A stretch of 64,000 nt of DNA from Halobacteriales archaeon QS_4_62_28 (lineage in GTDB: Archaea; Halobacteriota; Halobacteria; Halobacteriales; Haloarculaceae): NCBI GenBank assembly GCA_003021685.1, contig PXRO01000037.1:43586-107585 (forward strand), read 5' to 3'. This document shows, piece after piece, positions 13,003 to 53,794 of the stretch (position 1 is the stretch's first letter; each line of letters starts with the position of its first letter). The position numbers and the translations under genes are program-made. The notes beneath the pieces are model-generated. The model had not been told where the DNA came from. It saw nothing but the letters and a program-made list of their open reading frames with translations, and searched no databases.

Positions 13003-13065
13003 ACAAATCCCCATTCTGTTCCGGGGCGGGGGCCAAATAAGCAGCTACTCTTGTAGCAGAGAATA

Positions 13066-13316
13066 CACCGAAAGCCCTCGTGCAGTTGCGGTCCCGGGAC
13101 CCACGCTGCGCTCTGGCAGGTGCTTGCGGGGTCCGGGTTCCCGCAACTGCACTCGCCCTTTCATCCGCCAGGCTCGTGGATAGTCCGGCAGTCTACCTCC
13201 TGGCGGATGAAAGGGCGAGCGGCGGTCGGTCCCTCCCGGGCGACGTAAGCACCGGAGCCGAAGGCGAGGAGCGCAGCGAGCCCCGGAGTGGTCGAGCGCC
13301 GCGAGGGCTTTCGGTG
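13066..13316. repeat. large palindromic intergenic element, copy A
   Basis: A 251-bp structured element bounded by a perfect 15-bp inverted repeat (CACCGAAAGCCCTCG at 13066-13080; complement at 13302-13316). Inside are a perfect 11-bp inverted repeat (13081-13091 / 13141-13151) and a perfect 21-bp one (13152-13172 / 13199-13219, containing CGCCCTTTCATCC). A linear module of about 95 bp follows (GGTCCCTCCCGGGCGAC onward) that recurs in copies C and D. It fills the space between the convergent menF and YihY genes. There is no protein-coding signal. Confidence 0.85.
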
Positions 13317-13359
13317 CTTTACCTCTTATTTGAACACTGCGGGCTCTGAGGATCGACTC

Positions 13360-19034: not shown

Positions 19035-19120
19035 GCCGAGGTAGCCTAGCCCGGCCAAGGCGGTTGCTTCGAGAGCAACTGTCCGTTCAGGACACAGGAG
19101 TTCAAATCTCCTCCTCGGCG
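19035..19120 (+). tRNA. tRNA-Ser (anticodon CGA)
   Basis: An 86-nt class II tRNA. The acceptor stem pairs GCCGAGG (19035-19041) with CCTCGGC (19113-19119), followed by discriminator G. The anticodon stem GTTGC/GCAAC (19063-19067 / 19075-19079) encloses TTCGAGA, giving anticodon CGA at 19070-19072, which reads UCG. A long variable arm follows, and the T arm is AGGAG TTCAAAT CTCCT. CCA is not encoded. A TATA-like CCGATAAA sits at about -28. No intron is seen. Confidence 0.95.
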
Positions 19121-22830: not shown

Positions 22831-22991
22831 CACGCCTCAACATCGGTGTCGCGGCGAACCCAACAGATTAATGATTGTTAACGACCCATAGACAGGTACC
22901 ATGTCGGACTTCGACAACGAGGATAGAGGAAGTCGCCACACGGCGGCTGGGCGTGAAATTCGCCGGCGAGCGTAACTCGCAGGACACAACC

Positions 22992-27222: not shown

Positions 27223-27345
27223 CCTGGTGGACTGAAAGGGCGAGTCCAGTTCGGGGAACCCCGACGACGCAAGCACCGCAGCGAACACCGTGAGCGAGGC
27301 GCACAGCGAGGCGCGGGACCCGAACTGGGCGAGGGCTTTCTGGCG
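27223..27345. repeat. palindromic intergenic element, partial copy B
   Basis: A degenerate member of the element family. It starts CCTGGTGGACTGAAAGGGCGAG, which resembles one arm of the 21-bp stem in copies A and D, and ends with CGAGGGCTTTC (27330-27340). It contains a perfect 10-bp inverted repeat CCAGTTCGGG / CCCGAACTGG (27246-27255 / 27319-27328) and the GACGCAAGCACCG string also found in the family. The outer left arm is missing. Confidence 0.65.
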
Positions 27346-27369
27346 TTCGATCCCTTCGTTACTGCGTGA

Positions 27370-27530
27370 GCGCTCACTTCTGTTCGCCTCCGAACACTGA
27401 ATGAATTCTCACCGATGGAGAAGTGAGACGCAAAGCGCTCACTTCTGATCGCCTCCGAACACTGGATGAATTCTCGCCGACGGAAAAGTGAGACGCAAAG
27501 CGCTCACTTCTGATCGCCTCCGAATTCATG
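27370..27530. repeat. 65-bp tandem repeat carrying the dcd 3' end
   Basis: The string GCGCTCACTTCTG recurs at 27370, 27435 and 27500, so the period is exactly 65 bp. The copies at 27370-27434 and 27435-27499 are full length and differ at few positions. The third is partial and merges into the dcd coding end. Each unit carries, on the minus strand, the codons for FGGDQK or FGGEQK plus a stop. Confidence 0.85.
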
Positions 27531-41780: not shown

Positions 41781-42201
41781 CTTGTCGTTGACTCCACTTT
41801 CTCCTACTCTGCCGGTCGCACTTGAAGGGGGGACGAAGAAATACGGGATTTGATCGAATTGTGCCGTCTTAAACGGTTTTACCGCCCGATTTAATCCGAG
41901 TTAATCCGGATTGTCGCCCTCACTGATACGGTCTGTTGTAGTCTGTTACCGGAGATCGCCGACCCCATCGGAGCGATCAACGGTAAATCGCTACAATGGA
42001 CCGTGTGACACGGCCACCGAGCGTGCATTGCCCCCGTCTTTCCGCACGTTCCGGGTCCTGCGCGCGCACCCGACCAGGGACCCACGCTGCGCTCCCCCTC
42101 GTCCCAGTTCGGGGCGCTTTGCACCCACAGTAAGACCCCGTGGCCACACCGCCCGCGTCCGGTGCTGTTCGAGTAAGCAACCGTGCCGAATACATCGGAG
42201 A
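41781..42201. other. intergenic region without a gene
   Basis: No supportable gene is seen in these 421 bases. At about 41876-41910 the TTAATCCG motif occurs twice near the start side of the secreted-protein gene. At 42078-42095 an 18-bp string GGGACCCACGCTGCGCTC is identical to 13096-13113 inside palindromic element A, so this region holds a relic of the same element family next to copy C. Confidence 0.55.
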
Positions 42202-42389
42202 CACCGAAAGCCCTCGCGGCGCTCGACCACTCCGGGGCTCGCTGCGCTCCTCGCCTTCGGCTGCGGTGCTTGGCGTCGCCCGGGAGGGACCGACCGCCGG
42301 CGAGTGCAGTTGCGGGAACCCCGGCGAAGCAAGCACGCAAAGCGCGCGCAGCGAGCCGCGGGACTGCAACTGCACGAGGGCTTTCGATG
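42202..42389. repeat. large palindromic intergenic element, copy C (inverted orientation)
   Basis: Bounded by CACCGAAAGCCCTCG (42202-42216) and CGAGGGCTTTCGATG (42375-42389). The first ~95 bp is the reverse complement of the linear module in copies A and D (GTCGCCCGGGAGGGACC and CCACTCCGGGGCTCGCTGCG). An inner perfect 9-bp repeat TGCAGTTGC/GCAACTGCA (42305-42313 / 42366-42374) matches the inner stem of copy A. The ATGAAAGGGCGAG stem is absent. It lies directly upstream of the DUF151 gene. Confidence 0.85.
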
Positions 42390-42477
42390 CTTTGTAAGCG
42401 TTTCTCTCGATCTCTCCTCCGAACACCGCCCGCGTCCACTGCACAGTTTTTCATACCTTCGCTCCCAACCAGTCTGT

Positions 42478-53386: not shown

Positions 53387-53435
53387 TCCGCGCCTCCATG
53401 GGTTCAGATAAGAGATCGAAGTAACAGAGTTGAGA

Positions 53436-53794
53436 CACCGAAAGCCCTCGCGGCGCTATCCGGCGCTGTGACGGATATTCTCCCTGCGGTCGAATAGTGC
53501 CGACGCAGCGCCGGCTACCGCGCCTCGCCCTTTCATCCACCAGGTATCGGCTGGACAACCGGCTGAATCCTGGCGGATGAAAGGGCGAGCGGCGCTCGGT
53601 CCCTCCCGGGCGACACAAGCACCGCAACGGAGTGAGGAGCGTGGTTCGAAAGACCTCCGGTCTTTCGTCATCACGAGAGAGCTGCGCTCTCTGGGACGAC
53701 AGCGAGCCCCGGAGCGGTCGAGTGGGCGGTCGGTTCCACCGACCGCCTTCTCCGCGGCGGCAACTGCCGCCGCGCAAAGCGAGGGCTTTCGGTA
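53436..53794. repeat. large palindromic intergenic element, copy D (with extra hairpins)
   Basis: A 359-bp element. Outer arms are CACCGAAAGCCCTCG (53436-53450) and CGAGGGCTTTCGGTA (53780-53794). The 21-bp stem CTCGCCCTTTCATCC.. / ..GGATGAAAGGGCGAG recurs at 53524-53544 / 53569-53589 with one mismatch. Four further perfect hairpins lie inside the shared module: 53647-53667 (9-bp arms), 53676-53692 (7-bp), 53725-53747 (10-bp) and 53754-53773 (8-bp). It sits between the convergent cupredoxin and thermosome genes. Confidence 0.88.

Follow-up and report, generated by a model that had tools for sequence, protein, structure and literature searches.

Results

The window, by which we mean the whole 64-kb stretch of DNA analysed here, holds four copies of a palindromic repeat, all of them between predicted genes, as the preliminary description had noted. 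None contains a transposase gene; the copies lie between predicted genes and are too short for one. The core of the repeat consists of two inverted ~100-bp units that flank a central palindrome. Each unit runs from GAAAGGGGC through one side of a stem to GACGCAAGCACCGCAG, a variable hairpin and GAGGAGCGCAGCGAG, and then through the other side of the stem to GGGGCTTTC; the loop motif GACGCAAGCACCGCAG..GAGGAGCGCAGCGAG is conserved and nearly invariant.

Copies A, C and D were found where the preliminary description had placed them, together with their inner stems. The core of copy A (13066–13316, plus strand) is bounded by 15-bp arms at 13066–13080 and 13302–13316, both perfect. Within it are unit 1 (13070–13162, minus strand; covariance-model match 13070–13161, 65 bits), the central palindrome (13152–13219, with 21-bp perfect arms) and unit 2 (13209–13312, plus strand; model match 13210–13312, 75 bits), the last of which is the linear module of about 95 bp singled out earlier. 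On the outside, copy A has a shortened A-end with the terminal repeat GCAGTGTTCAAATAAG (13317–13340, minus strand) and a degenerate B-end containing ..CCAAATAAGCAG.. (13029–13065, plus strand; placed partly by eye). The 18-bp identity to copy A reported elsewhere in the window is real and lies at 42077–42094 (GGGACCCACGCTGCGCTC). Copy B, correctly described as partial, is one unit on the plus strand (27234–27340; model match 27235–27340, 90 bits), preceded by half a central palindrome. Directly to its right is a 65-bp tandem repeat (27369–27524; 2.4 copies, 94% match), which contains CCGAACACTG, resembling an IS6-type tip, and which seems to be a duplicate of the neighbouring gene's end.

Copy C is a whole element (42161–42429) set between two 8-bp target-site duplications, CCGCGTCC, at 42153–42160 and 42430–42437. 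It comprises a B-end with the IS6-type terminal inverted repeat GGTGCTGTTCGAGTAAG (42161–42201, plus strand), a core with 15-bp arms in which two units stand face to face and the central palindrome is deleted (42202–42389, minus strand), and an A-end with the IS6-type terminal inverted repeat GCGGTGTTCGGAGGAG (42390–42429, minus strand). Beyond the left duplication, at 42146–42160, a few extra bases agree with the element tip (ACACCGC / AGCAGTG); a copy in another record (L086) likewise has a few tip-matching bases outside its duplication, which looks like the trace of a lost tandem neighbour. Copy D has an A-like end starting GGGTTCAGATAAGAGATCGAAG.. with a degenerate tip (53396–53435, plus strand) and a core (53436–53794, plus strand; arms 53436–53450 and 53780–53794); it has no B-end and is truncated on its right side. 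Its core measures 359 bp largely because unit 2 carries two double-hairpin inserts, one of 58 bp at GGAGCG^CAGCGAG (53642–53699, plus strand) and one of 57 bp of the CTCG^CTCGACC type in reverse (53723–53779, minus strand). Unrelated to the repeats, the window also contains a leuA-Halobacteria RNA (Rfam RF03001, 69.8 bits; 22912–22964) upstream of a long open reading frame, and a tRNA (19035–19120).

The 15-bp arms were thus present in A, C and D as claimed, but are perfect in copy A only; those of copy C have one mismatch (CGAGGGCTTTCGATG), as do those of copy D, where the right end reads TACCG for CACCG. With up to two mismatches allowed, the arm pattern matched the window 10 times, against 0.08 matches expected from shuffled sequence, and six of the 10 account for the arm pairs of A, C and D. 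The source genome is a 2.64-Mb draft in 57 contigs, about 90% complete and with repeats poorly assembled. In it the arm ACCGAAAGCCCTCG has 53 exact matches and 77 with at most one mismatch, compared to 2 for a reversed-pattern control, an abundance far above chance. The genome-wide search yielded 29 paired copies of 138–359 bp, which bears out the suggestion of a dispersed family, as well as single arms, many of them at contig ends. One copy (L075; G000 contig C30, bases 1–310) lies at a contig start and is flanked on both sides by the same sequence, inverted; this may be real, as a long inverted duplication, or a product of the assembly.

The arms had been taken for the outer limits of the element. 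Alignment of the flanks showed that they are internal and that the element extends about 40 bp beyond them to its true ends: most copies are bounded by two different conserved ends of ~40 bp each, the A end (AGCAGTGTTCAGAGAAGAGATCGAGAGAAACGCTTACAAAG) and the B end (GGTACTGTTCAGATAAGCAACCGTGCCGAATACATCGGAGA), with tips that together form an inverted repeat. Haloarchaeal insertion sequences of the IS6 family have these same outer inverted repeats, ~17 bp long. Among the 22 fully bounded copies, 12 are bordered by an 8-bp target duplication with no more than one mismatch (8 of the duplications are perfect), against 0.2% when flanks were exchanged at random among copies; the other 10 bounded copies, which lack a good duplication, may be old or may have had their ends shuffled. 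Genomes of the same genus contain 697-bp elements with identical tips (GGCGGTGTTCAGATAAG / GGTAGTGTTCAGATTAG) and 8-bp duplications, and one of them encodes a 201-aa protein that was identified as a transposase of the IS6 family (NF033587, E 4e-58; the PF13610 model is weak on haloarchaeal IS6, and NF033587 confirmed the family). The tips GGTAGTGTTCAGATAAG / GGCGGTGTTCAGATAAG are common to the repeats and to the autonomous IS6 elements, and 697-bp IS6 elements with tips of this kind also occur elsewhere in the order; perfect duplications flank two of these. In the draft genome of the window we found only broken or partial IS6 genes, and a pattern search detected no paired IS6 tips at its one near-complete gene, nor at the IS6 genes of G256, a genome of another family.

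Comparison with relatives revealed empty sites. At the locus of copy C, synteny search and alignment showed TGTGGCCC uninterrupted in two relatives (G001 and G002), and in a third, G003, an independent insertion of the form TGTGGCCC-GGTAGTGTTCAGATAAG...CTTATCTGAACACGATC-TGTGGCCC. At the sites of copies B and D the element is absent from all three relatives; at the site of copy A no arm was found in the relatives. The elements are thus insertions rather than fixed landmarks. Copy C in the window genome (42161–42429) and the G003 insertion (L137) arose independently, have different target duplications and share one short intergenic region adjoining CACTGCACAG, possibly an insertion hot spot. IS6-type-ended copies with perfect 8-bp duplications are found as well in G256 (TCGAACCG, TCAGCGAC and GGTGCGTG), and in three named haloarchaeal records (GTCCCCCT, GTAAGTCT and CGATTCGA). 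Several G256 cores are nearly identical at separate sites, which suggests recent spread. Seven haloarchaeal plasmid records gave partial matches, with no annotated feature beneath them, and phage sequences gave no match to the elements.

The unit itself has a far wider distribution. Matches listed for the loop motif include Halorubrum, Haloarcula, Halosimplex, Haloglomus, Halonotius, Halogranum, Halorussus, Haloarchaeobius and Halobaculum records, among others. A covariance model built from 70 units gave matches in 202 of the 242 Halobacteria genomes and 63 of the 73 genera; at the cut-off used, 40 genomes had no match, and since at most 17 candidates were scored per genome, the unit copy numbers are lower bounds. 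A sample of 197 genomes across the phylum gave 29 positives, all in the repeat's own order, and none in the sampled genomes outside it. The interior is a class-wide modular palindromic repeat. In 128 aligned units 96.3% of cells pair, and two-sided changes number 631, against 182 in shuffled alignments (none of 500 as high), though the alignment was fitted to the covariance model and so leans towards structure. Even the outermost pairs of the unit covary (GAAAG/CTTTC, CAAAG/CTTTG and CGAAG/CTTCG). Searches of the elements against Rfam 15, at gathering and relaxed thresholds, returned no credible match, only weak chance hairpins, and a literature search that covered few of the subscription journals found no description of the inner palindromic module.

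Some units carry optional inserts of 52–61 bp with exact borders, each made of two short hairpins and a short linker. They are present or absent at exact points, always the same ones within the unit: GGAGCG^CAGCGAG, GCAAG^CAC, CCCGGGCG^ACG, CTCG^CTCGACC and GAGTGC^GTTGCGG. A distant MAG (L186) has the same type of insert at the same point with another stem sequence, and two loci from other genera (L056 and L221) have inserts of the same design at GCAAG^CAC.

The unit also occurs in other vehicles. In two Halorubrum-like genomes (G044 and G190) its carrier is longer, has another architecture and lacks IS6 ends; there (L280–L285) it is accompanied by a left module containing ..GGCTGGGGAGGCGTGAGGTGCGG.. 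and a conserved right flank of ~100 bp. We could place no clean element ends in Halorubrum, and the flank of three Halorubrum records (L172, L184 and L224) contains a TATA-like TTTATAA. The presence of the unit in other vehicles implies that it predates the IS6 MITE or does not depend on it, and its occurrence without IS6 ends, as in Halorubrum, means that the IS6 MITE does not account for its whole distribution. In six records, from several other genera (L159, L171, L179, L194, L222 and L224), the last ~20 bp of the unit and ~25–35 bp of flank are tandemly repeated outside the unit, 2–4 times with a period of about 45–57 bp, as if the element end had grown by slippage.

Finally, parts of the repeat are found in both orientations. 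Loops are flipped in a fixed context: TCC (3 cases) and GGA (6), TGC (5) and GCA (1), AGTT (14) and AACT (1), TGGAA (9) and TTCCA (2), TTCA (1) and TGAA (1). The same is true of whole cores relative to the ends, the three unit types standing 9, 6 and 7 times next to A and 11, 5 and 7 times next to B. Copy C had been described as inverted, which holds for its core, but across the genome cores face either way with respect to the ends at about 50:50. The flips of loops and cores suggest palindrome-driven template switching; the mosaics could also have arisen through gene conversion or homologous recombination between copies.

Discussion

The repeats were previously proposed to be possibly mobile, and the IS6-type ends, the 8-bp target duplications and the empty sites all support this. 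Together with the IS6 elements that have the same ends, these features lead us to identify the outer element, with high confidence, as an IS6-type MITE. That an IS6 transposase moves it in trans we infer from the ends, duplications and empty sites; the broken or partial state of the IS6 genes in the window genome speaks against it, although that draft is incomplete. A review of the family gives as its hallmarks 8-bp repeats, GG tips and cTGTt, with haloarchaeal members of 700–750 bp, and refers, without describing them, to two IS6 MITEs that are 227 and 336 bp long (Varani et al. 2021, PMC7986276). The elements described here resemble such MITEs in their tips (GG, cTGTt), 8-bp target duplications, lack of a gene and length of 210–405 bp, but differ in an interior of nested, shuffling palindromes that is also found outside IS6 contexts. 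A match to an already described insertion sequence end thus exists for the outer ends, but not for the palindromic interior: the IS6 family is known, and what is new is the nested architecture and its record of inversion.

Taken as a whole, the repeat is probably a gene-less IS6-type MITE, mobilised in trans, that carries a class-wide, flipping palindromic module. An IS6 transposase would insert the elements through their outer inverted repeats, producing the 8-bp target duplications, and the cargo would be the haloarchaeal module of two inverted ~100-bp units and a central palindrome. Since palindromes make up every level of this cargo, the arms could be kept perfect during replication by strand switching or cruciform processing. 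The same strand switching, to which the loop flips in fixed context, the ~50:50 core orientation and the almost exclusively Watson–Crick covariation all point, would invert loops and whole cores and swap modules between copies, giving rise to a mosaic. One process would then cover the perfect arms, the covariation, the flipped loops, the inverted cores and the module swaps. Most simply, the palindromic module is a hitchhiker, and the pattern needs no host function.

A different view of the interior, which we regard as possible although the less probable one, is that the unit and the 52–61-bp double hairpins are independently mobile palindromes that insert without target duplication, often into other palindromes, the IS6 MITE being just one of their homes. 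It is compatible with our explanation of the outer element. The class-wide presence of the unit, also without IS6 ends, would fit, as would the presence or absence of double hairpins at exact points and their shared insertion point in distant genera, where the stem sequence differs. Known double-hairpin elements are about 26–80 bp long, and the inserts, with two short hairpins, a short linker and a length within this range, match them in form. The mitochondrial double-hairpin elements and the GC clusters of yeast mitochondrial DNA, which merge and shuffle (PMC4478555), have the same two short hairpins and linker and are likewise present or absent at sites, but are organellar, whereas the inserts described here are archaeal and always at fixed points inside the unit. 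A further parallel is SMR-A of Haloquadratum walsbyi, which is ~110 bp long and has inverted repeats, no target duplication and palindromes as targets (PMC3119063). Compared by description, both are gene-less palindromic units of ~110 bp with inverted ends and an association with mobile elements and palindromes; SMR ends, however, are unrelated to known transposons, whereas our whole element has IS6 ends and a target duplication, which set it, as a whole, apart from SMR-A as described. Against independent mobility, we found no empty site for the unit alone or for a double hairpin alone, and the insertion points are always the same, which also fits descent and recombination.

We consider it rather unlikely that the ~100-bp unit is a structured DNA (or RNA) domain kept class-wide, nearly invariant motif included, for a function, for instance binding of a host or transposition factor, which travels in several unrelated mobile vehicles and has been colonised by site-specific double-hairpin elements, to make up a three-tier nested mobile system whose core is functional.

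The preliminary description had also raised an RNA-based element. A structured RNA or RNA-acting element (small RNA, terminator, 3′-UTR or regulatory hairpin) spread through the class would account for the very strong covariation and the nearly invariant loop motif, but maintenance of DNA palindromes yields covariation too. Moreover, wobble is scarce: 93.5% of stem cells are Watson–Crick, 1.6% G-U and 0.5% A-C. Covariation so nearly confined to Watson–Crick pairs points, though not decisively, to DNA palindromes, and not an RNA helix, as the object of constraint or repair. Units in tandem gene contexts are oriented without bias (25 versus 20), and their gene context, judged with genes predicted by a simple acidic-composition rule, shows no clear preference and is like background; this argues against a terminator, 3′-UTR or promoter role. 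Since, in addition, Rfam has no match and element positions are not conserved between sister species, an RNA origin of the pattern appears improbable.

A chromosome-organising or protein-binding element under host selection would fit the conserved internal motif and class-wide presence, but given the genomes without a match at the cut-off and the shifting positions between sister species, such a role seems very unlikely. REPIN- or BIME-like repeats moved by a Y1 (RAYT/IS200-type) transposase likewise consist of short palindromes paired in inverted orientation between genes (PMC3116915), but are hardly a credible identity for elements that are larger, built on several levels (more elaborate than simple REP sequences, as first noted) and equipped with IS6 ends and 8-bp duplications, whose unit motif was absent from about 1.5 kb around all 10 Y1 genes examined in four genomes, and that are borne by two genomes without a Y1 gene at the cut-off.

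With the repeats read as IS6-type MITEs carrying a palindromic module, what had been a vague hairpin repeat can be defined as a mobile element, and the enzyme family likely to mobilise it can be named. Its module is present in most of the sampled Halobacteria genomes and is without an Rfam entry. The near-invariant loop motif within freely covarying stems raises the question of what, if anything, reads the motif. The flipped loops and cores record, in a natural setting, how archaeal palindromes invert and strands may switch.
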